NCBI RefSeq assembly: GCF_000226095.1
Contig: NC_016472.1
Span: forward strand, 2,852,001-2,916,000
From: Thermothelomyces thermophilus ATCC 42464
Lineage: Eukaryota; Ascomycota; Sordariomycetes; Sordariales; Chaetomiaceae
Length of the DNA: 64,000 nucleotides
Direction: 5' to 3'
The translations under genes and the position numbers were made by a program. Positions 30,136 to 56,300 of the stretch are shown one piece after another (within the stretch, counting starts at the first letter, position 1; each line of letters opens with the position of its first letter). The notes beneath the pieces were generated by a model. The model saw only the letters and a list, made by a program, of their open reading frames with translations, had not been told where the DNA came from and did not search any database.

Positions 30136-32749
30136 TATAAAGGAGAGCATTAAAAGTTCTACTTTAGTACTTAACATTATAATAATATCTTAATAGAATG
30201 TCTTCTATATAATAGGACTTCTGAATAGGAAGAAGATATATCTCTATAATAAATACTATATATTTAGATTATCTATATACAAAGCGTCTCCAGCAATTAT
30301 AAGTAATAGACTTTCTAACGCTTGCTTGCCTTTATACTAGATTAATAGGTAAAAGCTCCTAAATAGATATCTTATTACTTGCTATACCTCTAATAAATAA
30401 TCCAGTCCTGGGTTAGTTAGGTATTAGAAAAGTACTAAATAGGTATATACGACATCTAGACATAGTATAACTATATAATATAGGATTAATCTAACAAGCT
30501 CCTAGTACTCTTTGATTTACGTATTAGTAGTACTCCCTTTAAACTTCTTAAGTTTTTTATAGCTTAAGGGAGTTAGCTTATATATATTAGATATATCTAG
30601 CCTATATCTTCTCGCTACCTTTCTAATATATTAGTTATAGACTAACTATATCTTATATATAGGTCAGTCTTAAATCACCCTAATGCTAAGAAACTAACCA
30701 ATATCACTCTATTTATAGACGTTATATTAAGCTTTGATTCCTTCTATTACCCACTTAGCCGCTATAACGTTACTTTTATAGAAGAAGACCAAGAAGTCAT
30801 TAATATAGAAGATTAGGATAACTTATTTATCATAGCTTAGGAAGAGGCACTTCTCTTCGCCTAATAGTTCTATACCTGGATCTAATAGCGTTTTATGAAA
30901 CTCCTTATACTATAAGAGTAGCAAGTCTCTTAAGCCGTATAGAGCTCTATGTAACTCTATATATTTCTCTAGCTACTTAAATCCTCCTAGCAATTCGTAG
31001 ACGATAGGATCATCTTTAGGTCATTCGGCGTTAAGAAATGCTTACGCTACATCGAACTACTTAACTTCCAAGTCAAAGTATATAGCGATCGCCATCATTA
31101 TATAGAGCAACTATACCGCCAGAGTAGCTATATATATACTTTCTACTAAGCTAATATCTTATAGATCTCCTTATACATAGATCCTTACCTTACACTTCTC
31201 TAAGAAACCGTCCTTGTCAAACTTATACGTAAAGACCTATTTCAACGGGATAGGTCGCGCTCTTGCCTGCTTGTATAGTACGATCTTCCACGTTCCCCTG
31301 CTCTCTAAGTTATATATCTCCTCGCGAGCCGCGTCTTTAAACTATTATTCTAATAGGTGGTTATATAGGTCTTACTAGTTGGTAGGAACACAAGTAAGAT
31401 CGTCGATATGCTAACATAGCTTATTTAGGGCTGCTCTGAGGCGTATGGTATCCTTCTATCGTATAGCGGTAGTAAACACTATATATATCGTTCTTATACT
31501 CCAGTCCTCTAGGTAAGCTTCCTATTAATTAGGTAGGTAAGTCTTATAAAACTATTACTAGAGTTCCTTAGTTATATAGATAAAGGAGTAGTAGTAATTA
31601 ACCCTCTCTTTAATTTATAGCCTTTTACTTAACCGGATAGGGTCCCTAGGCTTATAAGCCTTCTTCCTGCCTCTACCTCTCCTTATAGGAGGTTACCAAG
31701 TAGCTTCTCCTTTGCTTCTACCTTCTAAAGGATATATTGGCTGATCTGGACTTCGTTTAATGCTCTGCTCCTCTAGCCTAGCCAGGTACGATATATCGGT
31801 AGTACTGTCCCTAGCTCCTAGCTCTTCCGTCTATTCGTCGTATACGTTAGATTCTTCCATAGAAGGCATCCCTCCGCTAGATTTGGTAGCTCCCCTGCTC
31901 TCCTTAGCGTCTAATTAGCTAGCTAGTAACTAGGAAGGCCCTAATTTAAACCTTCTTACTTCCTAGTAGACGTCCCCTTTACTAGCTGGTATAAGGTAAG
32001 TTACTAAGGGCTTAGACATATATTTAGGGGTTAAGAGTCCTTTAAAGCTCTCTATCCATTTGGTAAGTTCGTCTATTACTTACATCTCTGCTATAAGAGT
32101 CTCTAGAACTAACTACTTACTTATAGGCTACGTATTAGAGAGCTCCCTTACCCTTAAGTCTTAACCCTATTAGAGAGGTTAGTCTACTACTAGACTCTCC
32201 TATAATAGAGGTAGCCAAGCTACTATAATAGAGTCTTCCATTGGTTATTAGGTCCATTATAATGCCTCCTAGAGAAAGTTAGTATTCTAGGAATCTTTGC
32301 TAAGATCGAACTAATTAACTTCCTAGCTTGCTACCGCTAGCGATAACTCTATTAGCTACTCTTTACCTAGACGGTAGAAAGTCTTCTTATCGAAACAAAT
32401 ATTACAAGTTATAATGACCCTATCGAGCTTAGGTATCTAAATACGATAGATATTAATATATAATATCCTATAAGATATCCTATTAGCCTATACGGTAGTA
32501 TCTTAAAGTCCTTTATACGTTGCTTAGCTTCCCTATCCTTATAAAGGATATATACCTGGTATCTATATATAAAGATATTACTCTAATCTAGGCATAAGTC
32601 GCTAGTTAACGTAATTATCAAGCTAGGTTTATACTAGCGAAAATACTATTTAAACTAGCTATAGAGTACTTCGTTAGGAGTTCTAAATAAGTAAGTACGG
32701 CTCAGGCATATTATATATAAGTATACTACCGCTTATATACTTTCCAACT
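30136..32749 (-). pseudogene. Copia A pol remnant: reverse transcriptase and C-terminal integrase
   Basis: Read on the minus strand. The integrase tail resumes after the B1 insertion (AVY..NMPEPYLL, near 32690). Reverse transcriptase follows at about 31100-30700, with QFDV-AFLNAE, LHRALYGLRD and YINDFLVFF, which corresponds to the YVDD box of copia enzymes with Val and Asp altered. RNase H residues follow towards 30140. The order integrase then reverse transcriptase is the mark of Ty1/copia. Mutated codons abolish activity. Confidence 0.8.
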
Positions 32750-33171
32750 TGTAACGAACCCAACTCAGACTTCTTCTAAAAGGGTTCAGACGAAGGTAGG
32801 TTAAGCGGGACAAGCGTATAGGTCGTCTAAGGGATTCGGTAAAGCCAAAGAGTTCACGACAACACTAGAGTTGTCTCTCACAGTAGTTAACGATGCTTGG
32901 TATGAGTACTGTGATTATAGGTTGCTATCACTGGTAAACTCCTAGAGTCTACTGTAACGAGTGACTATCTATATATATATATAATCTTGGGATCACTCTT
33001 TATCTAGTGATCCTTTGTCGTCTGGATCATAGCTACGATAGTAATCCTATAACGTATATATCACTTTGCCAAGCGTGATTCTTTCCTAATTGGTCTATTT
33101 GTGCCTGCTGTCCTATTGGCTTGTCAGGGAAGGCAGCTTAGGCGGCGTCCTGTATGTATATTTCTGTTATA
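32750..33171 (-). repeat. 3' LTR of B1
   Basis: 422 bp, TGTAACGAACCC to TTTCTGTTATA in window direction. It contains the R-start motif AGTGATAGCAA (minus strand, 32922-32932). The U3 part differs from that of B2 and B3. Confidence 0.93.
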
Positions 33172-33293
33172 CGATGCCCCTCCTTCAAGGCTTTTGACCC
33201 GAAAGCCTATCTTAGGCCGTTTCAAATAGCGCTAACAACCCTTAGTAAGTTGTCTCCTATATTTCCCTCTTTCTTCTATATACTGCTGATAAC

Positions 33294-33943
33294 ATGTCTC
33301 GTATAGTAAAGCGTTCGATAAAAAGGTCTGTAAAGACCGAGGAGCGTATTGCCCTAGCTACTGCTATTAACGAGCTAGGGTTCGAAGTGATACCTTGTTC
33401 TTTTTGTTTTTCTTACGGCCTATACTGCCATATAATAGAGAGTTCTTCTCGTTATAGTAAATGTGTTTGTCATAGGAGGTCGTATAATAGTTCTAAGGTT
33501 CTAGTCTTGTCTTGTCAGTGTTCCCTTGTTAATATATTTTTCCTATACTAACTTCTATAGTATCCTATATCATAGACAAATCAAAGCGCCTCGACTAATT
33601 AGAATAAGATACTAAAGAGGCTCTCCGTACTAACCGCGATTTGTTAGCAAAAGTATAGCGTCGTCTAGACAAGTCTCTAGCTCGTTTAGACTATATTTGT
33701 CGTCAAAAGCGATCGTTATTATCTCGAGGGTCGGAGATGGTTTGCCAGGGTCTTACGTCTTTAGATAAATTAGAAGAGGTAGAGTAGCAGGAATCGGGGG
33801 CGGTTCTAGGTGTATAGCTTAATGGTGGCGTTAACGTTATTAACTAGGGCGCTATCTTCGATTCTATCCCGGTTTTGCCTTTAGTCGATCTAGGTTCTGC
33901 CGGTAGAACTGTTCTAGTTTCTTAGGGTAATTTAGGTTCTTGA
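33294..33943 (+). pseudogene. Antisense zinc-cluster/coiled-coil gene of B1 (195 codons, spliced)
   Basis: Opposite to gag-pol, starting 123 bp inside the 3' LTR. Exons 33294-33513 and 33576-33943 with a 62-nt intron (GTCAGT, TACTAAC at 33546, CATAG). Exon lengths sum to 588 nt and the frame closes on TGA 33941-33943. Exon 1 starts MSRIVKRSIKRSVKTEERIA and carries IPCSFC-x6-C-x8-Y-x2-C-x6-Y. Reading the two Tyr as TGY-to-TAY mutants gives C-x2-C-x6-C-x8-C-x2-C-x6-C, the Zn2Cys6 spacing. Exon 2 is a charged heptad-like helix (LDKSLARLDYICRQKRSLL) ending in an acidic tail. Its six or so internal stops are all TAA/TAG at Gln-like positions. Function is unknown; DNA binding with dimerisation is a hypothesis. 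Confidence 0.65.
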
Positions 33944-33949
33944 CGGGTT

Positions 33950-36900
33950 CCTATAAGTTGTCTTCTAGTCTAAAATCAAGCTATTTGACTAGATACTGTA
34001 GTTCCCTATTGATGATATGTGAATCTAGAATTTCTTTGATATCCTATTCTTCTTCTTCGTCCTTTGCTTTAATATTTATAGCGATTTTGGCATTCTTTAG
34101 CGCTGGTTCGAGAAGTGAAATATGAAAAATGTCTGTCTATAGTCGTATAGATGATGGTAATGATAGTCGATAGTTGGATGTCAAGATTCGTTCTTTGATA
34201 ACGAAGGGTCCGACCTTCTTAAAGTCTAGCTTTATACTTAGTCGTTTGGTTTGTAGGTTTCGTGTAATTAGGTAGACTTTATCTCCCCTCTCTAGGTAAG
34301 GTCCCTCGAGCCTATATTTGTCGTAGTAGTTCTTTATTCTAGTTCTGACAAACTCAAATTCGTTTTTAAGCTTCTTATATAGTATATATATTTATTCTAC
34401 TTTGACTGTTGCTCTTGGCATTATAACCTTTAGTCCTTGCCTAAGGTCTGCTTTATATCTATAGTTCGCGAAGAATGGTATAACTTTAGTCGTTTCTATT
34501 GGCATTATATTATAAGCGAGTTATACTATTAGTAATAGTATAACCTAGTCATCTTGCTAATAGTTAATATAAGAATAGAGGTATTGCTTAATAACTTGGT
34601 TTAGTTACTCCGTTTGTCCGTCGGTTTATAGGTAATATATTATTAATAGCTTGCTATTAATGCCTAATTGTTATATTAACGCTTACTAAAACTTCGATGC
34701 GAACTTGGTGTCCCTGTCGGTAATCTATTTCTATAGCCAAGCGTATACTAATGCGACTTGCCAATAGATTATGTCTGCTAACTGTTCTACTATCTAGGAC
34801 TCCTTATAAGGAAAGAAGTATGCCTATTTAGTTAGGCAATCTACTATAGTAAGAATACTATCGTAGATTACCCTTATAGCCGTGTCCTTGGATTCTAGCA
34901 GTTTTGTAATAAAGTCTATCGTAACTAAACTCTATAGTTTGTCGGCTATTGGTAGTGGCTAAAGTAGCCTATACGGCTTGTATCATGCTATTTTACTTCG
35001 ATTGCAGATATCGTAGCTCTATACGACTTCCTTGACTCGTGTCGTTAACTATAGAAAGTTATAGTGTTTCTTGACTTGTGTGACAGTCTTTGTAACTCCT
35101 TTATATCCTCCGAGTTTCGACTTATGGAGTTCTTAAATCATTTGTAGCTGTTAATCTTTGTCGTAGATATATGCTTTGCCTTGGTACTAGAGTTTCCTAT
35201 CTTTTTATTCTAGGAACAAGTCGAGTAGGTCATCTTCTATAGGTGTCTACGTTTCGTGATATAGCGTTCCGTCTATTTATTCCTTAAATGATAGTGGCGT
35301 TGTTTCCGTTCGTCCTTCTATATAATCTATTCGTCGGCTTAAGGCGTCCGCTCGTACGTTCTCTTTGCCCTTCTTATAGCGGATCTTAAAATTAAATTCC
35401 GTAAGGAATTCTGCCTATTATATTTGTCGTCCGTTAAGTACCTTTGTCGTTATAAAGTATTGTAAATTCTTATAATCTATATATACTTATACTAGTTTAA
35501 TCGTACTACTAAGGTATAATCGCTATTCCTTAAAAGCTTTAATAATCGTAAGTAATTCCTTATTATAGATCAGATAATTAAGACATAGTCTATTAAGCTT
35601 CTTTGAAAAGAAGGCTATAGGATGTAGCTTCCCTTGTTCGTCTTGTTATCCTAATTATCCTCCGATAGCGTAGTCTAAAGCGTCCGTTTCTACCTTAAAT
35701 AGCTTCTTAGGGTCTAGTAATACTAGTACTAGATCTTTAGTAATGGTATTACGGATCTATATAAATGCTTGCTCATGCTATTCTTCCTATTGGAATTTAG
35801 TATTCTTCTTAGTAAGTTTGTATAAAGGTCTTACGATCGCTCTAAAGTTCCTAATGAACATCTAGTAGAAGTTCGTAAACCTAATGAAACTTTATACTTC
35901 TATAACTAATGTCGGTCGTAGCCAATCCTTAATAGCTTCGACCTTTAAAGGTTCTATCTGGATTTGTCCTAGGGATATTTCATATCCTAAAAACACCATC
36001 TTCCTAACGTAGAATTTGCTCTTTTCCTTGTTAACTAATAGCTTATACGTGTATAATGTGTCTAGTACTACTCTTATATACTTCTGGTATTTATCTATCG
36101 TCTTAGAGAAGATAAGTATATTGTTAAGATAACATACTATAAATTTGTCGAGAAAGGGTCAGATAGCTTGATTAATTAGGGCTTAGAACGTTACTAGCGC
36201 ATTTATAAGTCCGAATAGCATGATAAGATATTTGTAGTGACTATAGGGTGTCCTAAAGGCCGTTTTCTACTCATCGCCTTCTTTGATCTATATATAGTTA
36301 TAGGCCGATAGTAAATCAAGATACATAAAATATTAGGCTCCTGCTAACTAATCTCGGAGCTATAAGATTAGTAGTAATAGGTATCGGTTTTTTATAGTCT
36401 GTTTATTAAGTTACCGGTAGTTAACATATAACCGTAGCTTTCTATCTTTCTTAGGTATAAATAGGATTAGGTAGCCTATTAGCGATATCAATAGGCAGAT
36501 ATATCCTCTTCGAAGGTTCTCCTCTAAATATCGCTTAAGTTTTTCGTTCTATGTCTAGCTTATATAGTAAATCTTGAAGAACTTTAGTCGTGCTCCTTCC
36601 TTGAGCTTGATCTCGTAATCTTATAGGCTGTACTCTGGTAACCCTTCTAGATGCTTTGGTTCAAATGCTAGGTATCCTTTATATTCCTTCGGTACTTCCC
36701 TAGTCTTGTCTTGTCTCTCGGCTTTCTAATAGTATACAAACTTGGTTCCGTCTATAGCGATGCTAGCGATTTCTCCTATCTTAACCTACTACTCTAGTTA
36801 TAGTGCTCTGTATTCGTTAACGGAGAGAACAGCTATCAGCGGTTTAGCTTATTCTTCCTATTATAATGTTAGTGTCGTTATACTACTTCTTCTAGAGTCT

Positions 36901-39610
36901 ATAATAGTCTACCTACTACTATCTGTCTCTTATAGTAGATCCGTAGGACATGCCTTCCTCTAAGCATCGTCTGCTTATGATCCTTATATACTCTCTATCT
37001 TGCTAGTCAAATATAACTCCGTTTAAGGTCGTAGATAGCTACTATTCTTTTAGCTAATGTCTAGGTCGTAATCTTTATACTATAGTAATCCTAATATTAT
37101 ATCTTTATTATTGCCTATATCTATAATATTAAATACGACTATTATAGTTTTCCCTGCTATAGTAATATTAATTGGTTCGGTCTCCTTATATACTTATTAT
37201 ATTAGAAATGGCCCTTTGACTATGCTATACTTCTGCTTTATTCTCTAGGGTATCTATAGCTAATTTATAAGTGTTAGCAAAATCAGGTTTATCTCTGCTC
37301 TACTATCTACTAGTATAAGCATTTCATACTATCTCTATTATACTATTATCTATAGTCATTTGTCTTGCCGCTGTCGTCTAAAGATTATGGCGATTTCCTA
37401 TGTTTCTGCCGGGAGGTCTCGATATAGTGGTCTCTTACGCTAGTTCCTCCTATACTACGTTATTACTTGCTATTATACAGGCGTTAATGGTTTTCGGGCC
37501 CCTCGAAGGGCCCTAACCCGTTTCCTAGGTTAGTACTAACCTCTTTGGTTATTTGGCTAATAGCGGCTTCGTCGATCATGCTCATTTCTATAAGCCACTA
37601 AGTGCTTGTAGCTTCCTACTATTAGGTCCGTTCTGCTTTTCGTTGTATATGCTATAGCTTTATCTAAAGCTCCTGGATCCGCGATTTCTTTTCGTCTATG
37701 TAGTAGAGGTAGTCATTACTCCGGCACGAGTCCTATATATCTTGTCCTATTCTATAGTGCCTAGGCTAGGCTTGTTTTAGTACTACTATAATGCCTTCTA
37801 GATTATAGGCTTCGATCTTCTAGAGCAATTCGGCTGCTCTATTTCCTATATTATAGATCTATTCTATAGGGCAGAGGCTTCTGTTCTCATTTTCTTATTA
37901 GGTTAGCTAGTAATTGTTTTCGAATTTGTTACGAAAGTAGTATTAGCATTCGTATAATATATACTAGAACTAGGGCACTTATATATATGCCTCGTGTCGC
38001 AGGTACAGTCACGTAGCGTTACCTAGAAGGTATTGGAATTCTTTCCCGAATCCTTCCTACTATATATAGACTATAGATACTCTAATGCTAAGGTAGGAGT
38101 ATTTCTTCTAATAGCTTTCCTATATATGCTTATCTTTTCCGTAGTTCGCGTGTATAAACTAGTACTTAGGGTTCCATACGTCATAGCCAAGTTGCTAATC
38201 GTCAAAATACTCGGTATAGCTATTAAGCCCATCGTATATCACAGGCTATTCCCCTTTAATGGTTTCTACGATATATCAGAGTTCCCTTATCTCGTCCCTC
38301 ATCTTATCGCTCTACTAGGCAAGTCAAATCAAGCATCTATCCTGTTTGTATAGTTCCGTATTGAGCCGGAAAACTTTGTTACGATACTATTCGATTCGTT
38401 CCTAGAGGAATAGAACATTAGGTCTAGGTCTTTTGATTCTTTAGGTATCAGTCATCTACGATCTATCCTACCTCTAGGTAATTATAAAACCCTACTACCT
38501 TAGGGCTAGGAGAATCGAAATTAGTAGTATATACTCTCCTACTATATCCTATTTGGCAAGACCTATCTCTAGGTCTACCGTAACTAGTTCGGAGTACGGT
38601 GCTTATTTGTCTTTACTATCGCTATCGTGTCCAAGACTATCTATATTACTATCCCTGTCTTTATAGCTCGTAGCTACTACTTCGATGACATCTTTAGTAG
38701 TTTCGTTAATAGCTATAATTTCCTTTCTAGGGACTGCTTTCTACTCTTTCTTTAGGCTTTGACATTCTTGCTTGTAATGCCCTTTCTTTCTATAATTATA
38801 GTAGGTAATATAGGACTTGTCTTTAGTCGTCTTCTTTTAGTCCTATTTCTATGCTATATCTATATCTATAGCTCTAGGATATATCCTATATAAGGTGCTA
38901 ACATATACTCGTTTTTTCTTGTTATTAGCCTTGACCGTAGTTCTATTTATCTAACCTTATTTCTACTACTCTTATATATAAAGTCAATTATCGATTCTAA
39001 TAGCCTATATAATATATTTATCTAGGGTCTTAGGCTAGTTATACTTATATAGCTTATCTTTAACCTTTTCCTTTAAGCCATTATAAAATAGTTATATTAA
39101 TGCCTTATTATTAAGCTAAGACTTAAGTATATCCTATCTAAACTATATAACATAAGAGGCTACTAACTTAGTCTATTGGAGATTAGCAAGTCTTTCTTAT
39201 ATATAAATCTTCTTATCTTTGTCGCTAAAAACCTTCTAAAGCTCTTCTTTAAAATAGTTATAAGATTAAAAGACTACTTATATAAACGCGTCTTAGTCGT
39301 CTTTATCTTCCTTAGTAAGATGGTTATTCTATATAGGCTTAAACTATCTAAGTACCTTACCTTCTAGTCTTATAGCTATATAGAGGACTTTAGCTTTATC
39401 GTCTAGAAACTTGTCATTATTAAGCCAGAAGTAGGATCAGAGGTTCGTTAGGAATCCTATAAGATCTTCCTTAGTTCCTCCGTATTTGCTAGGTAGTTAA
39501 ATCTTGATATGGCTCGCTTTGGCGTCTTCGAGTGCCTTGATTTTAGCATAGGCCTCGTTAACTAGCTTCTACAAGTGCTTTTCGCTGTTCTCGAGTTCCT
39601 TGATCCGAGC
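33950..39610 (-). pseudogene. gag-pol remnant of B1 (most of it)
   Basis: From the B2 junction leftward on the minus strand. The remainder of gag includes a CCHC knuckle near 38763-38808 (mutated: YNYRKKGHYKQEC). Next come the gag/pol hairpin GGGCCC-loop-GGGCCC at 37496-37513, the protease near 37290, reverse transcriptase about 36080-36480 with the YLNNIL-type box, RNase H about 35350-35720 and integrase about 34330-35180. A chromodomain-like tail lies near 33950-34100. The first gag codons lie beyond B2 at about 47175-47310. Confidence 0.8.
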
Positions 39611-39615
39611 TTAAG

Positions 39616-40042
39616 TGTCACGGAAATATACATGCAGATGCCGCCTGAGCCACTGGCACGAACGGGCCAATCAAGCCGAAGGAATGATAGACCAATTAGG
39701 ACGGGATTACGCTTGGCAAGAAATAATCCTAATAGAGGATCACTGGCTCACGATATAAGCTAGGTAAGCTAGTATAAATGATCACCATGACTACTAGTAA
39801 TCCTAGGAGTATATATACATATAAATAGTCACTCGTTATAGTAGACTCTAGGAGTTTACTAGTAGTAATAATTATAATTATAGTACTTATACCAAGTATT
39901 GCTAATTACTATAAGAGATAACTCTAATGTTATTATAAACCCTTTAGCTTTACTAAATCCCTTAGACAACCTGCCTACTTGTCACGCTTAATCTACCTCC
40001 GTCTAGACCCTTTTAGAAGAAGTCTAAGTTAGGTTCGTTATA
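39616..40042 (+). repeat. 5' LTR of B2
   Basis: 427 bp, TGTCACGGAAATATAC to GGTTCGTTATA. It contains a TATA-like gtatatatac and a mutated R-start motif (AGTAGTAATAA). The primer site CGTTGTTACCACTCCC follows immediately. Confidence 0.94.
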
Positions 40043-40069
40043 CGTTGTTACCACTCCCTTTGTTCTGTC

Positions 40070-43000
40070 ATAGTTTAGAACGGAGGTGACTTCGACCTCG
40101 ATATCGATATAGCTACCAACGTCATAGCCGAACAGCTGCTTACTTAGCTTGGTCAACTCTAGTAGCAGATCTAGGAGTTGGACCAGAGAGACAAGGCTGC
40201 TCAAGCTCGAATTAAGGAACTCGAGAACCGCGAAAAGTACTTGCAGAAGTTGGTTAACGAGGCCTATGCCAAAATTGAGGCACTTGAGGGCACTAAAGCG
40301 AAGCGTATCAAGATCGAACTACCTAGCAAATACAGAGGAACTAAGGAGGATCTTATAGGATTCCTGACAAACCTCCGATCCTACTTCTGGCTTAATGACG
40401 ACAAGTTTCCGGATGACAAAGCTAAAGTCCTCTATATAGCTACAAGACTAGAGGGCAAGGCACTTAGATAGTTCGAGCCTATATAGAACGACTATCTTAC
40501 TAAGGAAGACAAAGACGACCGAGACGCGTTTATATAGGTAGTCTTCCGATCTTATGACCATTTCGAAGAAGAGCTTTAGAAAGTTTTTAGCGACAAAGAT
40601 AAGAAGATTCATACGTAAGAAAGACTTGCTAATCTCCAATAGACTAAGTTAGTAGCCTCCTATACTGTATAGTTTAGATAGGACATACTTAAGTCTTAGC
40701 TTAATAATAAGGCGTTAATGTAATTGTTTTATAATGGCTTAAAGGAAAAGGTTAAGGACAAGCTATATAAGTACGATCGGCCTAAGACTCTAGACGAATA
40801 CATTGTACAGGCTATTAGAATCGATGATCGACTCTATATACAAGAGTAGTAGAAACGAGGTCGAATAAACGGAACTACGGTTAAGGCTAACAACAAGAAA
40901 AAGCAAGTGTACGTTAGTACCTTATACAGGATATACCCCGGAGCTATAGATATAGACGTAACGTAAAAGCAAGACTAGAAGAAGACGACCAAAGACAAGT
41001 CTAATATTACCTACTATAACTACGGAAAGAAAGGGCACTACAAGCGAGAATGCTAAAGCCTAAAGAAAGAATGGAAATCAGCCCCTAGGAAGGAAATTAC
41101 AGCTATCGACGAAACCACCAAGGACGTTATCGAAGTAGCGGCCACAAGCTACAAAGACAAGGGCAGTGATACAGACAGTCTCGGACATGACAGCAACGGT
41201 AAAGACGAACAAGCACCGTACTCCGAACTGGTTACTATAGACCTAGAGACAGGTCTCGCCGAATAGGATACGGTAAGAGAGTATATACCGCTAATTTCGA
41301 TTCTCCTAGCCTTAAGGCAGTAGGGTTTTATAGTTATATAGAGGTAGGATAGATTGTAGACAACCGACACCTAAGGAATCGAAAGACCCAGACCTAATGC
41401 TCTATTCCTCTAGGAACGAATCGAATGGTACTATAACGAAGTTTTCTGACTTAACATGGAACTACGCGAATAGGATAGGTGCTTAACTTGACTTGCCTAG
41501 TAGAACAATAGAATAAGGGACGAAATAAGGGAACTCCGACGTATCGTAGAAACTATTAAAGGAGAACAGCCTATGACATATGATAGGCCTGATAGCTACG
41601 CCAAGTATCTTGACGGCTAGCAACTTAGCAACGACATATAGAACCCGGAATACTAGTTTATACGTACGAACCGCGGAAAAGACGAACGTACGTAGGAAAG
41701 CTACTAGAAGAAACACTCCTATATTAGCACTAGAGTACCTATAGTCTACGTATAATGGGAAGGATTCGGGAAAGAATTCTAATACCTCCTAGGCAATACC
41801 ATGTAACTATACCCTTAACATAAGGCACATATATAAGTGCCCTAGTTCTAGTGTGTGGCACACGAATGCTAATACCACTTCCGTGACAAATTCGAAAACA
41901 ATCACTAGCCGACCTGACAAGGAAATAAGGACAGAAGCTTACACCCTATAGAATGGGTCTACGATATAGGGAACAGAGCAGCCGAATTGCTCTAGAAGAT
42001 CGAAGCCTGCAATTTAGAAGGCATTACGATAGTTCTAAGACGAGCCTAGCCTAGGCACTACAGAACCAGACAAGACATATAGGACTCGTGCTAGAGCAAC
42101 GATTGCCTCTATCATACGGACAAAAAGAAATTACGAATTCGGGAGCTTCAGACGAAGCTATAGTACGTACAACAGAAAGCAGAATAGACCTAATAGTAGG
42201 AAGCCGCAAGCACTTAATAGCTTACGGAAATGAGCACGATCGACGAAGCCGCTATTAGCTAAATAACCGAAGAGGTCAGCACTAACCTAGGAAACGGGTC
42301 AGGGCCCTTTAAGGGGCCCGGAAACCATTAACGCCCGTGTAGCGACAAGTAGTAGCGTAGTATAGGAGGGACTAGCACAAGAGACCACTATATCAAGACC
42401 TCCTAGCAGAAGTATAGGAAATCGCCGCAATCTTTAGACGATGGCAGCAAGACAAGCGACTATAGATAATAGCATAATAGAAATAGCACGAAATGCTCGC
42501 ACTAGTAGATAGTAGAGCAGAGGTAAACCTGATTTCGCTAACACTTGTAAATTAGCTACGGATACCCTAGAGAATAAAGCGGAAGTATAGTATAGTCAAA
42601 GGGCTATTTCCGACATAATAGGTATATAGGGAGACCGAACCGATCGACATCACTATAGCAGGGAAGACTATAGTAGTTATATTTAGCATTATAGACATAG
42701 GTAACGATAAAGACATGATATTAAGGTTACCATAGTATAAAGATTACAACCCGGACATTAGCTAGAAGAATAGTAGCTACCTATAACCCTAAACGGAGTC
42801 GTATTCGACTAGTAAGATAGGGAGCGTATAAGGATCGCAAGCAGACGATACTTAAGGAAAGGCATATCCTACAGATCTACTACAAGGGACAGACAGTGGT
42901 AGGTAGACTACTATAGACTCTAGAAGAGGCGGTATAACGATATCAATATTGCGACAGGAGGAACGAGCTAAATCGCCGATAGCTGTTCTCTCTATTAACA

Positions 43001-46000
43001 AATGCAGAGCACTATAATTAGAGTAGTAGGTTAAGACAGGAGAAATCGCCAGCATCGCTATAGACGGAACTAAGTTCGTATACTATTAGAAAACCAAGAG
43101 ACGAGACAAGACTAGGGAAGTACCGAAGGAATACAAAGGACACCTAGCATTCGAACCGAAACATCTAGAAGGATTACCAGAACACGGCCTATAGGATTAC
43201 GAGATCAAGCTTAAGGAAGGAGCATAACTAAAGTTCTTTAAGATTTACTATACGAGCTAGACACAGAACGAAGAACTTAAGCGATATTTAGAGGAGAACC
43301 TTCGAAGAGGACATATCTGCCTGTCGACATCGCTAGCAGGCTACCTAATCCTGTTTGTGCCTAAGAAAGACGGAAAGCTACAGTTATATGTTGACTATTG
43401 GTAACTTAACAAACAGACCATGAAAAATCAATACCTGTTACTACTGATCTTACGGCTCCAAGATTAGTTAGTAGGAGCCTAATATTTTACGTATCTTAAC
43501 TTGCCATCGGCCTATAATTATATATAGATCAAAGAAGGCGACAAGTGGAAAACGGCCTTTAGGACACCCTATAGCTATTATAAGTACCTCGTCATGCCAT
43601 TCAGACTTACGAACGCGCTAGCAACGTTCTAAGCCCTGATTAATCAAGCTATCCGACCCTTTCTCGACAAATTTACAGTATATTATCTCAACAATATACT
43701 TATCTTCTCTAAGACGATAGACAAATACTAGAAGTACGTAAAAGTAGTACTAGACACGCTACACGTATACAAGCTATTAGTTAACAAGGAAAAGAGCGAA
43801 TTTCACGTTAGGAAAATGGTATTTCCAGGATACGAAATATCCCTAGGATAAATTCGGATAGAACCTTCAAAGGTTGAAGCTATTAAGAATTGGCTATAAC
43901 CGACGTCAGTTACAGAAGTACAAAGCTTTATCGGATTTACGAACTTCTACCGAATGTTCATTAGGAACTTTAGAGCGATCGTACGACCTTTATATAAACT
44001 CACCAAAAAGAACGCCGAATTCTAATGGGAAGAGCGACATGAGTAAGCATTTACGTAGATCTGTAATACCATTACTAAGGATCTAGTACTAGTACTACTA
44101 GACCCTAAGAAGCCATTCGAGGTAAAAACGGACGCTTTAGACTATACCATCGGAGGACAATTAGGACAACAAGACAGACAAGGAAAGCTATATCCTATAG
44201 CCTTCTTTTTAAAGAAGCTTAATAGACTACGTCTCAATTATCCGATCCACAACAAGGAACTACTTACGATTATCAAAGCTTTTAAGGAATGGCGACCATA
44301 CCTCAGTAGCACGATTAAACTAGTACAAGTATATATAGATCATAAGAATTTGCGATACTTCATAATAACGAAGGAGCTTAACAGACGACAAATACGATAG
44401 GCAGAATTCCTCACGGAATTTAACTTTGAGATCTGCTACAAAAAGGGCAAAGAGAACATATAAGCGGATATCTTAAGCCGACGAACGGATCATACAAAAG
44501 GACAAATAGGAACAATACTACTATTGTTTAAGGAACGAACAGACGGAACGCTACATCACAAAACGTAGATACCCGTGGAAGACGATCCACTTAACTTGTT
44601 CCCCGAATACTATATAATCTTTCGAGAGGAAAGGATTAACAAGGCATAGTATTAAGCAGTACCCGGACCAGTGGTACCTAACGGAGTAGAAGAAAGAGAT
44701 AGGAAACTTTGGTACCAAGGCAAAGCATATATCTACGACTAGAATCAATAGCTACGGATGATTCGAGAACTCTACAAGTCGAAACTCGGAGGACATAAAG
44801 GAGTCACGAAGACTGTCGTACAAGTTAAGAAACACTATGACTTTCTACAGTTAATGGCACGGGTTAAGGAAGTCGTACGGAACTACGACATTTGTAATCG
44901 AAGCAAAACGGCACGATACAAGCCGTATAGGCTACTTTAGCTACTACTAACAGCTAACAAACTATAGAGCTTAATCATAATAGACTTTATTACAAAGCTA
45001 CTAGAATCTAAGGATATAGCTATAGGAGTAATCTATAATAGTATTCTTACTATAGTAGATCGCCTGACTAAATAGGTATATTTCTTTCCCTATAAGGAGT
45101 TATAGATAGCTAAATAGCTAGTAGACGTAATCTATTAGCAAGTTACATTAGTACATGCTTGGCCGCAAGAATGGATCACTGACAGAGACACCAAGTTCGC
45201 ATCGAAGTTTTAGCAAGCGTTAATATAACGATTAGGCATTAATAGCAAGCTGTCAACGGCATATCACCCACAGACTAACAGACAAACAAAGTAACTAAAC
45301 TAAGTTATCAAGCAATATCTCCGTTCTTACGTCAACTATTAGTAAGATGACTAGGTCATACTATTACTAATAGCATAACTCGCCTATAATACGACACTAA
45401 TAGAAACAACCAAAGTTATACCGTTCTTTACAAACTACAGATATAAAGCAGACCTTAGGCAAAGACTAGAGGTCATAGTACTAAGAGCAGTAGTCAAAGC
45501 AGAACAAATGTACACACTATATAAAAAGCTTAAAAAAGAACTCGAGTTTGTCAAAACCAGAATAAAGAATTACTATAATAAATATAGGCTTGAGGGACCT
45601 TGCCTAGAGAGGGGAGACAAAGTCTACCTAATCGTACAAAACTTACAAACTAAACGACTAAGTGCAAAGCTAGACTTTAAGAAGGTCGGACCCTTTATTA
45701 TCAAAGAACGAATTTCGACATCTAACTACCGACTATCGTTACCGTCATCTATACGACTACAGATAGATGTTTTTTATATTTCACTCCTCGAACTAGCACC
45801 AAAAAACGCCAAGGTTGCTACGTATATCGAAGCAGAAGACAAGGAAGAAGAATAGGACGTCAAAGAAATTCTAGATTTATGTATTATTAATAGGGAACTA
45901 CAATACCTAGTTAAATAGCTTGATTTTGGATTAGAAGATAACTTATAGGAACTAGTTAAGAACTTAAACTACCCTAAGAAACTGGAATAGTTCTACTAGC

Positions 46001-46060
46001 AGAACCCGGATCGACTATAGGCACTAGCTTAGACAAAACGGCTAAGTCGGCCTCTGACAA
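40070..46060 (+). pseudogene. gag-pol remnant of B2
   Basis: Gag begins at a mutated ATG (ATA). The coiled segment near 40178-40330 is still open (DKAAQARIKELENREKYLQK). The CCHC knuckle lies near 41010-41055, the gag/pol hairpin at 42302-42319 and the protease near 42500 (LVDSRAEVNLIS, catalytic Gly changed). Reverse transcriptase is at about 43360-43720 ([22 protein letters not shown]), RNase H 44120-44480 (KTDALDYTIGGQLGQQ) and the integrase HHCC region 44758-44940 (GGHKGVTKTVVQVKKHY). The integrase core follows to 45300 (ILTIVDRLTK, TDRDTKFASKF, YHPQTNRQTK). A GDKVYLIV…FKKVGPFIIKERI barrel and a chromodomain-like end come at 45850-46060. Confidence 0.85.
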
Positions 46061-46616
46061 ATCTAGGCCTAAAGAAGACCAGTTAAACAGGACGTTAGCA
46101 CCCTAGGACCGTACATCACTAATAACGCGTACTTCGGACTCCCGTACCCTCCGTTCTTCTACCTCTATTTCCTCTAGAGACTGTATACCTCGACAAAACA
46201 ACTCGGAACCCTGCTCCTTCAAGAAACGTTTCTAGCGACGAAGACAAGCTAATCGACCGATAGCCGTCTGAAGTTAAGTCTGAAGGACAAAAAGGGCCTC
46301 TTCGGCATCGGCCTCTTCTTGTTCTACACGCTTTTGTTCGGATATAATCTTCGTTACTATAAAGAATTAGCTACAAACATTAAGGTAATAAACTAGGTCA
46401 TAAATAAGCAGATGCTATATTAGAACCATCGTAAGAACGACCCCGATATATGTACTCGCTATAACGAGAAGAGCCTAACGCTATATGACAAGCCAAGTTC
46501 TGCTTAAAACACCACGAACACGGTATGACGTCCACGCCAGAAGAATTAATAAAAGAAGCAAGCGCGGCATACTATTAGGATTTCGAGGATCGGCATTTAG
46601 AAATACGATCTGCCAT
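45956..46616 (-). pseudogene. Antisense zinc-cluster/coiled-coil gene of B2
   Basis: Counterpart of the B1 antisense gene, starting 126 bp inside the 3' LTR and ending at TAA 45956-45958, so its end overlaps the chromodomain end of pol by about 100 bp on the other strand. Exon 1 has VIPCSWC-x6-C-x8-Y-x2-Y-x6-Y, the same spacing as B1 with Tyr at three cysteine sites. An intron-like gap (…TTTGTAGCTAATTCTTTATAG) separates it from a coiled-coil exon (IISEQKRVEQEEADAEEAL, KEQGSELFCRGIQSLEEIE). The protein differs from B1's by far more than C-to-T changes, so the two are distinct subfamily versions. Confidence 0.6.
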
Positions 46617-46742
46617 CTTATTAGTCACTAGTAGTACAGGAAAAGGGAAAAATTACGAGGCATATATAGAAAGGATGTTAGCGCTATTTGAAACGGCCTA
46701 AAAGAGGGCTTTCGGGTCAAAAGCCTCAGAGGGAGGGTATCG

Positions 46743-47169
46743 TGTCACGGAAATATATATATAGATGCCGCCTAAGCTACTAGCACGAACGGGCCAATCA
46801 AGCCGAAGGAATGATAGACCAATCAGGACAGGATCACGCTTGGCAAGAAATGATCCCAACAGAGGATCACTAGCTCACGATATAAGCCAGGTAAGCTAGT
46901 ATAAATGATCACCACGACTACTAGTGATCCTAGGAGTATATATACATGTAAATAGTCACTTGTTATGGTGGACTCTGGGAGTTTACCAGTGGTAACAATC
47001 ATAATTACAGTACTTATACCAAGTATTGCTGATTACTGTGAGAGACAACTCTAGTGTTGTTGTGAACCCTTTGGCTTTACCGAATCCCTTAGACGACCTG
47101 CCTGCTTGTCACGCTCAATCTACCTCCATCTGGACCCTTTCAGAAGAAGTCTGAGTTGGGTTCGTCACA
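46743..47169 (+). repeat. 3' LTR of B2
   Basis: 427 bp, TGTCACGGAAATATAT to GGGTTCGTCACA, after the purine tract gagggagggtatcg. The R-start motif AGTGGTAACAA is intact at 46988-46998. Confidence 0.94.
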
Positions 47170-47331
47170 TTAAGCAACCTTATCTCTCTAGTCTAACTCC
47201 TAGATCCGCTGTTAGGATTAACTAAGCTAGGCAAGCAGCTGTTCGGCTGTAATGTTAGTAGCTATGTCGATATCAAGGTCGAAATTACCTTCGTCCTAAA
47301 CTATAATAGAACAAAGGGAGTAATAGCAACG

Positions 47332-47753
47332 TGTAACGAACCTAACTTAGACTTCTTCTGAAAGGGTTTAGACGAAGGTAGGTTAAGCGGGACAAGTGTA
47401 TAGGTTGTCTAAGGGATTTGGTAAAGCTAAAGGGTTTATAATAACACTAGAGTTATCTCTTATAGTAGTTAACGATGCTTGGTATAAGTACTGTAATTGT
47501 AAGTTACTATTACTGGTGAACTCCTAGAGTTTATTGTAACGAGTGACTATCTATATGTATATATAATCTTAGGATTACTCTTTATCTAGTGATCCTTTGT
47601 CGTCTGGATTACGGCTGTGATAGTGATCCTATAGTGTATAGATCACTTTGTCAAGCGTGATCCTTTCCTGATTGGTCTGTTCGTGCCTGCTGTCCCATTG
47701 GCTTATTAGGGAAGGCGGCTTAGGTGGCGTCCTATATACATATTTCTGTAATA
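47332..47753 (-). repeat. 5' LTR of B1
   Basis: 422 bp, TGTAACGAACCT to TTCTGTAATA in window direction. The primer site of B1 (minus strand CGTTGCTATTACTCCC, plus 47316-47331) lies directly inside it. Confidence 0.93.
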
Positions 47754-47758
47754 TAACT

Positions 47759-53342: not shown

Positions 53343-56300
53343 TGCTCTCGTTTTCACACTATTTGGCGCCAATTGGCCCGCTCCTGTATGGACGATGGAC
53401 GGGAACGAGCAGGTCGGCGGGCGGGACGGTGAGGGAGAATGGCAGTGCCAGAAGGGAGCTTCGGATCGAGTCTATAGCGTACCGTCTTTTCTTCTTTCTT
53501 TTCTCTTCCTTTTTTCCTTGTTGATGTTGGACCTCTCATGATACGAACTAGGGGAAGGTCATTGCAACAGATCTTATTATTCTTGCCTCTTCCTTTTGTT
53601 ACCCTCACGAGAATAAGGGAAGGAGGAGGCGGGGGAGGGGGGACAGAAAAGGAATTTGCATCTATGCCCTGATCCGTCATTGGCGGTTCATCACCTTTGC
53701 GGCCGCGTCTAGATTAGGGTAAATGCTTCCAGACAAGATCACCTGGGCAGCACTGGTGATGGGGAAACTTGCAACTGCTTGCTCTAACAGGCAGCTCCGG
53801 TCTTCCGGAAGGGGAGAGAGCAAAAGACGTCCTGCACTTTGTGACTAAGCTGTTCTTATTTGGAATGGTGCTGTCTGAATTCAGTTGGTCGTCAAACTCT
53901 CTTCTCGTCACTCGCGTGCGCATGGTATCATTGCCATGGCAGACGAATGTGAAACAGCCTTCCTCCTCTTGTCAGGTTTTCACAGTGGTCGTGATGGTAA
54001 TTATGGGAACTATTGGTCGTGCGTTGATGACTCGGTTACTTGAACAAACAAGGCTTGCGTTACACCTCGGACGGAGGTGGGAGCTGGGGACGGAAGGGGG
54101 TTCCCGTTTCCAAATCGTGTTGTTGACGGTTCTGACAATGCAATGTCCAATATCGTCTGTCGCGCTTTTTTCTTCCCGAGCCATAATTATGCTTTGTAGG
54201 GCTCAACCTCCCAGAAGAACAATGTTGACGTAGAATCGGGGAACAAGAGCGTCATGATTAGAACATCTCAGTGTTGTCAAACTGCTTCGAGGCCTCGGTT
54301 GTAGCAGTGCCAAAGCAGGGCCTCAGAGCATTGCCGGAAATTTCGGGCGGGAATCGTACCCGGCTCCATGGAAGAGTTTCTGTCACCGCTACTTTCGTCC
54401 CATAGTCTCCGAGGCTTTACATCTGCTGGAGTTCAACTAGTCGGAGCGATGAATATCCGTCAAATGAGGTCGATGGCGTTGACTGAACTGGTCTAGCCTG
54501 GGTAAAGCAAGAATATAACCGAGCTCTGGTAAATTTCAGTGCGCGATGGCAAGTGCGAGCGTCTTATCTAAGATGGTCGTGGGAAGTGGGGCTAAAGGGC
54601 AGGCAAGTCAGATCGGCGAGTGATCAGCGCGATATTTGGGGTCAGAGCGGTGGGGAGCTCCCGAGAGGCCTTATCGCGGATTGGAGACGACACGAAAAAT
54701 GGTTGTCGGGAAGAAACTGGTCATCAACCACGCTGCCCTCGCGAAAAAAGCTGCTGGACGTTGCAAATAAGTTAGGGAGCCCCGATCTCGGGACGTCTTG
54801 GGTGCAGGCCCATGGCGGCCCGACCTGCAGTGCGATCGAGCCAGAGAGACGGTACGGATGCCTATTTGCTGCGGCTGGCAAGTTCCGCGAATTTGTCAGG
54901 CTGCGTGGTTCTGGCAGACGCGCCAAGATGGCAGAAACATGCAGTCCTACACAAGCGTAGGGCAATGAGCGTGCTACGAGTAAGGCCGACATGTTCGTCA
55001 TGACGGAGCGACAAATGTGGATGAAACATAATAAACTGTGTATGTGCAGGATGCGATAACAAGAGCCGACGTTGAATTAGCCTCTGGGCTAGAATACACT
55101 ATGTGGTCTGGGATCGACGGCATTCCCGCGCGAGGATGCCGCAAGCTCACCAGCTCCACAGCGGGGACGTAAAGGGCCGTACACTAGGCCGCGGCCAGAG
55201 CGACCCAAGTGCATGCCAGAGTAATCTTCTTTGCCCTCAGGACTTTGCATGTCTCGGGATCAAAGACGCCTTTGCCGCTAGGCTAACAGACAACCCAACC
55301 CACCGGGTTCCAGTTTGAAGAATGCAGGGACAGACTACCACGTAATCCGTATTACACCACCACACACAGTGTCAAACTTGATTCTCCCAAGGGGACCTTA
55401 CAAAACCTTCAGTTTATGGGCATCGGTCATTTCAGCTCCTGCGAACATCGGGCATTCTCGAGTCGGCAAATGTTCTCGGCCAGATTCGCAGGCACGCGAA
55501 GGGCCGGAACGAACCTAACCGGTTTTAGTTCAATTGAGCCTGGGCACGGGAATGGAGCTTCGAGGCTGGAGGGTCCAAAAACAGATTGGAAGGAGGGGTC
55601 TCTGCAGAACATTTGTTTGCTCCCAGGGACCTAAGGCGGTTCCCATTGGCGCTGTTGTGACCCTCCGAGCTTCCCTGCCGTCGCTCTTTCTCTTTTCGGC
55701 AGAGACGTGGCCGGGTCTGCTGCTGGAAACTTGGAAATCAATTCTTTCAGTTCCAAATTCGGGACTCTGCAGCACCAACCAACTGGCTGCTTGGGCAACC
55801 AGCGGTAATGGCCGCTTCACGGTTAGAAAGCCCAGGCATGTCGCTCCCAAGAATCAAACAGACTCCCCATGAATCGATCTTCCCTCCTTACGCCACCCCT
55901 CCCCCTCTCCCCCTCCCCGAGCTCCTCGAAGACCTCCTTTTGCAGGGCGCATTTACCGAATTCGCACGATTGCTGGGTCTCTGCCCACCACCAGTGCTCG
56001 GCGCCCCTATCACTTCTTCTCTCCACAAAAAAAAAAAGTTCAGCTCTTGCTCCCAGGACCGAAGTCCTCCCGATTTCTGGATCCGACAGCCACCGTCGCT
56101 CGAACCCCAAGATTCAGGTAGTCACAGTTTGAAAGAGGAAAGAATGGTCGGACAACATGCATTTGGCCCCGGGTGTCGCTCACAGGCGACACCATCTCGT
56201 CGGTTTGCGCTTTGAAAGGGTTGTGTGTTACTGTACATCCACAGATTCGGCGGGTGGCTGTCTCTTGTCGCGGCAGCACCCCGTCCCGCCATTCATCATT

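Follow-up and report, generated by a model that had tools for sequence, protein, structure and literature searches.

The Ty3/gypsy elements of family B carry, between pol and the 3' LTR, a spliced antisense gene for a conserved protein with a Zn2Cys6-type cysteine cluster, and both this gene and the adjoining U3 occur in discrete types on otherwise near-identical elements. From the sequence comparisons we suggest, with a probability of about 0.5, that the elements encode their own homodimeric Zn2Cys6-type regulator, and that this regulator and its U3 target are exchanged as one cassette among near-identical elements.

Elements B1 and B2

The window, i.e. the whole stretch of 64,000 nucleotides analyzed here, corresponds to positions 2852001–2916000 of contig 1 in a genome of 38,744,216 bases and seven contigs. 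At about 14 to 50 kb of the window the composition is RIP-like, with a TA/AT index of about 1.3–1.8. Element B1 is located on the minus strand (32750–39615 and 47170–47753), with the 3' LTR at 32750–33171, the 5' LTR at 47332–47753 and target-site duplications CAACT (32745–32749) and TAACT (47754–47758); its LTRs are 3 transversions and 49 transitions apart. Element B2 is located on the plus strand (39616–47164, target-site duplication TTAAG), nested in the B1 leader, and its LTRs differ by transitions only (45 transitions, 0 transversions). The LTR at 39616–40038 was also considered as B1's own and was rejected, since it belongs to B2. The main part of the gag-pol side of B1 spans 33944–39615 (minus strand).

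An LTR pair and a target-site duplication, the criterion used for Ty3/gypsy elements, were found for both B1 and B2. The pol end of L081, a copy of the third type, B3, scored above the Pfam cut-off for Integrase_H2C2 (58.6 bits), SH3_Tf2-1 (59.9 bits) and Chromo (50.1 bits), and just under the cut-off of 32.6 bits for rve (31.5 bits). The pol end of B1 is nearly the same as that of L081, transitions aside. Family B is a Ty3/gypsy chromovirus, with integrase followed by the chromodomain at the 3' end of pol.

The antisense genes of B1, B2 and B3

The antisense gene of B1 is located on the plus strand. Exon 1 (33294–33513, 220 nt, phase 1) starts with the ATG at 33294 and encodes a basic N-terminus and a Zn2Cys6-type cluster; the phase 1 intron (33514–33575) has the donor GTCAGT, the branch site TACTAAC and the acceptor CATAG; exon 2 (33576–33943) encodes a coiled coil and an acidic C-terminus. 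The start, the 62-nt intron, the in-frame TGA and the 195 codons put forward in the sequence-only reading were all recovered exactly when the gene was re-derived from the sequence. The same applies to the TAY codons at two of the six cysteine sites, as the cluster reads C-x2-C-x6-C-x8-Y-x2-C-x6-Y, with four cysteines kept and two sites occupied by tyrosine. The gene contains seven internal stops (2 TAA, 5 TAG), all in exon 2. They are of the TAG/TAA kind as claimed, but not all of them fall on Gln-like positions, since some of these are not Gln in the alignment to undamaged types. With its seven internal stops and two tyrosines in the cluster, the B1 copy is broken; it belongs to a large family and has been damaged by RIP.

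In the 35 of 41 B1-type copies that are of equal module length, the branch site ATACTAACT was present in 23 and the acceptor TATAG in 19. Among the 29 B1-type copies for which a donor hexamer was listed, 23 start with GT and 6 with AT. We infer that the intron is removed by splicing in vivo. The gene starts approximately 120 nt element-inward of the 3' LTR, which places the U3 of that LTR directly upstream.

Lack of a blastn match had suggested that B2 has no antisense gene, which was rejected when translation revealed a diverged homologue at the same place as in B1, on the minus strand of the window. It consists of exon 1 (46406–46616), a 49-nt intron (46357–46405) and exon 2 (45956–46356), with intron position and phase shared with B1. 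The window copy has no GT donor, and neither do most of the B2 copies that were compared, i.e. the 16 of 42 that are of equal length, few of which have one. The exon-joined junction (..NIASALTKIISEQKRVEQ..) agrees with that of an independent database protein, P0001 (..SVASALTKIMSEQRRVEQ..), which was found with a B2 query that contained no junction residues.

The B3 gene has an exon 1 of 208 nt, an intron of 66 nt and an exon 2 of 383 nt, and encodes 196 residues; intron position and phase are as in B1 and B2, and the gene and the pol end overlap tail to tail by 125 nt. Copies L082–L089 are 99.67–100% identical to L081 over about 2440 nt (0–3 mismatches), and TA/AT is 0.69 for B3 as compared to 1.47–1.52 for B1 and B2. 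Thus, B3 copies free of RIP damage exist, although a great many copies in this genome are RIP-damaged. The main difference among the B3 copies L081–L089 and L103 is the length of a poly-T tract within the intron. The genome tally had given the appearance of further undamaged types; the one examined, L103, proved to be B3 with an extended tract in the intron.

A conserved family of zinc-cluster-like proteins

A search with the B2 product, with X for stops, retrieved 6 proteins, and a profile of these retrieved 87 at E≤0.01. A profile of 53 members gave 65 matches at E≤0.001, including 35 additional proteins. The total is at least 122 homologues, these counts being lower bounds because the profile searches scored only the candidates with the most shared words. 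The named sources include Parathielavia, Canariomyces, Corynascus, Staphylotrichum, Verticillium, Colletotrichum, Trichoderma, Cordyceps, Apiospora, Thyridium, Sclerotinia, Stromatinia, Botrytis and Rutstroemia. Of the 53 members aligned, 41 continue without interruption over the intron position, 22 of these on contigs shorter than 2.1 kb, which suggests that the short contigs may represent spliced transcripts. Another 11 members have an in-frame stretch of 16–19 residues exactly at the intron position, as unspliced DNA would read, and one has an ambiguous insert of 7 residues there.

The protein layout comprises a basic N-terminus, the Zn2Cys6-type cluster, a long coiled coil and an acidic C-terminus with a conserved Asp-Trp motif. 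The GAL4-type spacing noticed in the sequence-only reading is supported by the homologues, as the strict pattern C-x2-C-x6-C-x5-12-C-x2-C-x6-8-C was found in 85 of 122 (52 of 87 and 33 of 35), and many of the others start downstream of the cluster. In UniRef, three homologues are already named 'Zn(2)-C6 fungal-type domain'. The Pfam cut-off for PF00172 Zn_clus (21 bits) was missed by P0001 (10.8), P0051 (12.2), P0056 (11.7) and P0110 (15.6), and no Zn_clus match was listed by Pfam for P0008, P0081 and P0120; at E≤0.1, Zn_clus was found in 9 of 53 members, with a best E of 0.0011.

The AlphaFold prediction displayed a small cluster and a helix of 91 residues, with short cluster helices preceding the long helix, which is of the coiled-coil kind and thus in line with the coiled coil claimed from the sequence. 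A Foldseek search with both predicted models gave no match at E≤10, and a sequence search of the PDB gave nothing significant. The profile search of the PDB had coiled coils at the top, followed by PUT3 (E 1.9), Cep3 (E 3.1) and LAC9 (E 8.5). As to a zinc-binding fold, structure prediction is compatible with the cluster, but the structural matches are weak. Among viral contigs, the query P0055 gave 23 stretches with the pattern and 0 relatives. The protein resembles GAL4, HAP1 and PUT3 in the six-cysteine spacing, in the short cluster helices with a long helix behind them and in the acidic C-terminus; unlike these, it falls below the Pfam cut-off where scored, is very small at about 200 residues and is encoded antisense in a retrotransposon whose U3 motif is not CGG. 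Based on the Zn2Cys6-type cluster and the long coiled-coil helix, the antisense product is probably a dimeric DNA-binding protein, which would bind zinc.

Transversions between the gene types were distributed as 144, 105 and 158 over codon positions 1, 2 and 3 (P=0.004, three disjoint type pairs summed). Taken singly, the bias was below P=0.05 for B1–B2 (0.014), B1–B3 (0.0002) and B3–T3 (0.006), and not for the other 12 of 15 pairs, including every pair that involves T1 or T6, the types that are most degraded. The sequence-only reading had held the gene model hard to explain by chance, and the B2 homologue, the 122 database homologues and this codon-position bias bear it out. AT-rich sequence is rich in splice-like words, and open frames with an intron could in principle arise by chance in RIP-mutated DNA; the probability of this is negligible given the homologues, the undamaged copies and the conserved position and phase of the intron, and we reject a chance open frame on the first two of these.

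The conservation of the protein also bears on whether the antisense RNA itself acts, by dsRNA or silencing control, with the protein being secondary. One study (PMC10648671) reportedly deals with antisense long noncoding RNAs that derive from transposons in a fungus. A role of the antisense RNA has been proposed for antisense aORFs in general, in the passages available from PMC7264820. However, we consider such an explanation very improbable here, as the protein is conserved over many genera, with conserved cysteines and codon-position bias.

Six module types on near-identical elements

The type-specific module of B1 (33244–33875) has no blastn match to B2, whereas the flanking pol is 84% identical. 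Compared to B3, the right edge of the module is at about 33816, and similarity between B1 and B3 sets in 3 nt away from the stop codon of pol. The gag-pol of B1 and B2 (33900–39599) showed 0–4 transversions per 300-nt bin in 19 bins, with a total of 25.

In 101 of 102 loci, a module of 603–664 nt was identified between an anchor on the polypurine side and one in pol, the remaining locus being without the left anchor. In a transition-blind (purine/pyrimidine) code, which hides RIP, the modules were assigned to six types, namely 42 B2, 41 B1, 12 B3, 3 T1, 2 T3 and 1 T6, counts that are not frequencies because 90 of the 102 loci were chosen by similarity to the gene. The six types were unchanged at cuts of 0.06, 0.10 and 0.15, and three groups were obtained at 0.20. 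When loci were instead chosen by the pol flank (12 of 40 pol-flank matches), 11 of 12 contained a module (3 B3, 2 B2, 3 T1, 2 T3 and 1 T6). Representatives of all six types translate as homologous genes, T6 poorly, with 20–51% protein identity between types (15 pairs, stops excluded). The claim of a spliced gene opposite to gag-pol and close to the 3' LTR, made for B1 in the sequence-only reading, is supported, and the homologues that this reading had proposed to look for next to other 3' LTRs exist. T1 (L094, L095, L101) is the most diverged type.

Over about 1300 sites, pol transversions per site were 0.0046 for B1/B2, 0.0023 for B1/B3 and 0.0023 for B2/B3; the contrast with pol covers the whole gag-pol for B1/B2 and the last 160–1300 nt for the other types. 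The B1 and B2 genes, on the other hand, differ by 124 transversions in 182 codons. In the segment comparison, which comprised 24 of 101 loci (17 for R-U5, 15 for further pol), R-U5 (four types), the polypurine segment and pol were nearly the same between types, whereas the module and U3 were close to the shuffled floor, except for the U3 of B1/B2 at 0.90 (transition-blind). The polypurine segment had a transition-blind identity of 0.90–1.0 across the six types. In B1, this segment is located at 33172–33243 (minus strand), and the tract and a hairpin beside it, GGCTTTC..GAAAGCC, were read by eye; the segment is alike in all six types and possibly forms an RNA structure. Residual DNA similarity between modules was observed towards the pol end, with the longest stretches being 118 nt (B1/T3) and 170 nt (B3/T3).

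Simple fast mutation of the module was rejected, as pol transversions amount to just 0.2–0.5% per site. A near-identical pol next to a diverged module and U3 is incompatible with mutation at one rate, whereas exchange can account for it, and we conclude from these comparisons that module and U3 appear to be exchanged between near-identical elements. The antisense types of this genome are scattered over the family tree (12 of 49 inner branches open), which was built without the degraded T6 and in which T1 forms a long branch of unsure placement.

U3 types and repeated motifs

With cuts of 0.05 and 0.07, the U3 cluster agreed with the module type for 101 of 101 loci. A cut of 0.03 set two B2 loci apart, and from 0.10 upwards the U3s of B1 and B2 formed a single cluster. 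The type-specific U3 of the B1 3' LTR (32981–33171, minus strand) contains 4 ATCAC/GTGAT, a TATA seen by eye and the inverted repeat GGATCACT-N8-AGTGATCC (P 0.07 in the window copy). Within the window, ATCAC occurs 4 and 5 times in the two U3s of B1 and 2 and 4 times in those of B2, with only 2 in the B2 5' LTR. The sole place outside the B1 and B2 LTRs with three ATCAC within 190 nt is located at 53581–53865.

GATCAC occurs 4.59 times per copy in the B1 U3, and the most frequent six-letter word per B1 U3 has a median of 5 occurrences (median P<0.005 against 200 shuffles). This blind repeated-word test was not significant for B3 and T1, nor for T6 with six letters. In this test and in the motif test that follows, B3 was represented by 4 of its 12 loci, because L082–L089 are near-copies of L081. 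By Poisson P values on a first-order expectation, uncorrected for the four motifs tried, ATCAC, which is the core of GATCAC, was enriched in the U3 of B2 (P 0.008), B3 (P 0.01), T3 (P 3e-8) and T6 (P 0.04) and not significant in T1 (P 0.18); for ATCGC the values were 0.001 in T6 and 0.07 in T1. Over all 12 B3 loci, ATCAC occurs 5 times per U3 in 9 loci, 3 times in 2 and twice in 1. Four U3 types thus have ATCAC clusters and the two others lean to ATCGC, and neither motif was significant in non-U3 segments (R-U5 covered for B1, B2, B3 and T3). CGG, which is the usual half-site of Zn2Cys6 proteins, was not enriched in U3. The longest U3 inverted repeat was motif-based in 8 of 12 single copies (2 B1, 3 B2, 2 T3 and L081; P from <0.004 to 0.07), whereas that of L091, L093, L094 and L095, the last two being T1, was not. 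There is no strict correspondence between motif and protein, as ATCAC is common to B1, B2 and T3 despite their differing proteins, and T6 has 2 ATCAC besides ATCGC.

Sites for host factors are common in LTRs, and the U3s of B1, B2, T3 and T6 are enriched in GATC. The motifs might therefore be sites for host factors such as GATC- or GATA-type regulators, with U3 diversification reflecting host control and the antisense protein not being involved. We regard this as unlikely, since the B3 U3 contains no GATC, the split between ATCAC and ATCGC follows type, and the parallel replacement of the gene would be left unexplained.

The strongest rival explanation is adjacency alone, by which gene and U3 co-vary as 3'-end neighbours moved by template switching, and the protein is otherwise employed, in nuclear import, integration-site choice or chromatin. 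The U3, the polypurine segment and the module are contiguous, and the linkage between U3 and gene may reflect nothing else, because there are just six types, three of which rest on 1–3 loci. In the parts of the literature available, U3 diversity is reported for Tnt1 elements (PMC1838419), and some plant antisense aORF products are reported as nuclear, with their role unknown (PMC7264820). However, adjacency on its own does not explain why the motif clusters are restricted to U3 or why a cluster of DNA-binding type is conserved, and we consider it rather unlikely.

A model for regulation and exchange

Under the self-encoded regulator that we favour, the antisense protein would act as a homodimeric DNA-binding regulator of its own element's U3 by binding the repeated motifs, and would more likely be an activator than a repressor. 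The ATCAC/ATCGC sites are located upstream of the sense TATA in the 5' LTR, where U3 drives gag-pol. In the 3' LTR, the same U3 with its sites directly precedes the antisense gene, so that a single protein could control both genes. Protein and U3 would travel as one 3' cassette between otherwise alike elements. Extrapolating from established retroviral replication, the route may begin with an intermolecular first-strand transfer, after which a template switch close to the pol end would leave R-U5 and pol from one element and U3 and module from another. Under such a route, the conserved polypurine segment between U3 and module would need constraint as its explanation. More tentatively, and at somewhat less than even odds, the swapped unit may be a complete self-control cassette that moves between elements identical in gag-pol, so that separate regulatory groups would drive only their own kind.

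Relation to known systems

The antisense gene brtn was reportedly described by Zhao et al. (2011, Virology 417:248). According to the passages that cite it, brtn is found in the Boty elements of Botrytis and Sclerotinia, where it occupies the region between pol and the 3' LTR, and dates from 2011 (PMC7264820, PMC8365987, PMC4227169). The statement of the sequence-only reading that fungal elements of this kind lack an established description, and with it any claim to novelty for antisense genes in fungal Ty3/gypsy elements, therefore fails. By these passages, brtn and the B gene are both antisense and located between pol and the 3' LTR of a fungal LTR element, and the present family has members in Botrytis cinerea (P0120) and Sclerotinia sclerotiorum (P0101). 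Compared by description only, brtn likely belongs to the same family. The citing passages are silent on Zn2Cys6, type exchange and U3 linkage, on which the original paper may differ.

HBZ of HTLV-1 is a spliced antisense gene from the 3' LTR side, encoding a dimeric regulator of the LTR of DNA-binding type. It is similar to the B gene in layout, whereas it is a bZIP protein, retroviral and unrelated. VANDAL elements are DNA transposons. The VANC proteins of Arabidopsis VANDAL transposons are described, in the passages available, as element-encoded, sequence-specific factors that evolve with repeated motifs and vary between related elements along with these (PMC5735166). The difference is that these are plant elements in which anti-silencing was proven by experiment, according to the same passages, whereas the likeness here consists of motif clusters and linkage. 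Tnt1 elements are alike except for U3, and the corresponding passages report no regulator gene swapped along with it (PMC1838419). Among the listed titles and abstract openings of the open-licence literature, neither a fungal antisense zinc-cluster gene nor a U3 linkage was found. What looks new is the surroundings of the gene, namely the discrete types and the joint replacement of gene and U3.

What antisense genes do in LTR retrotransposons is described as an open question (PMC7264820, in the passages available). With a conserved protein of DNA-binding type that is replaced along with a motif-bearing promoter, this question becomes directly testable. The modular exchange at the 3' end of the LTR elements is evident from transversions, which RIP cannot produce. 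If each protein binds its own U3, the family would provide a second case, unrelated to VANC, of matched pairs of factor and target in mobile elements.
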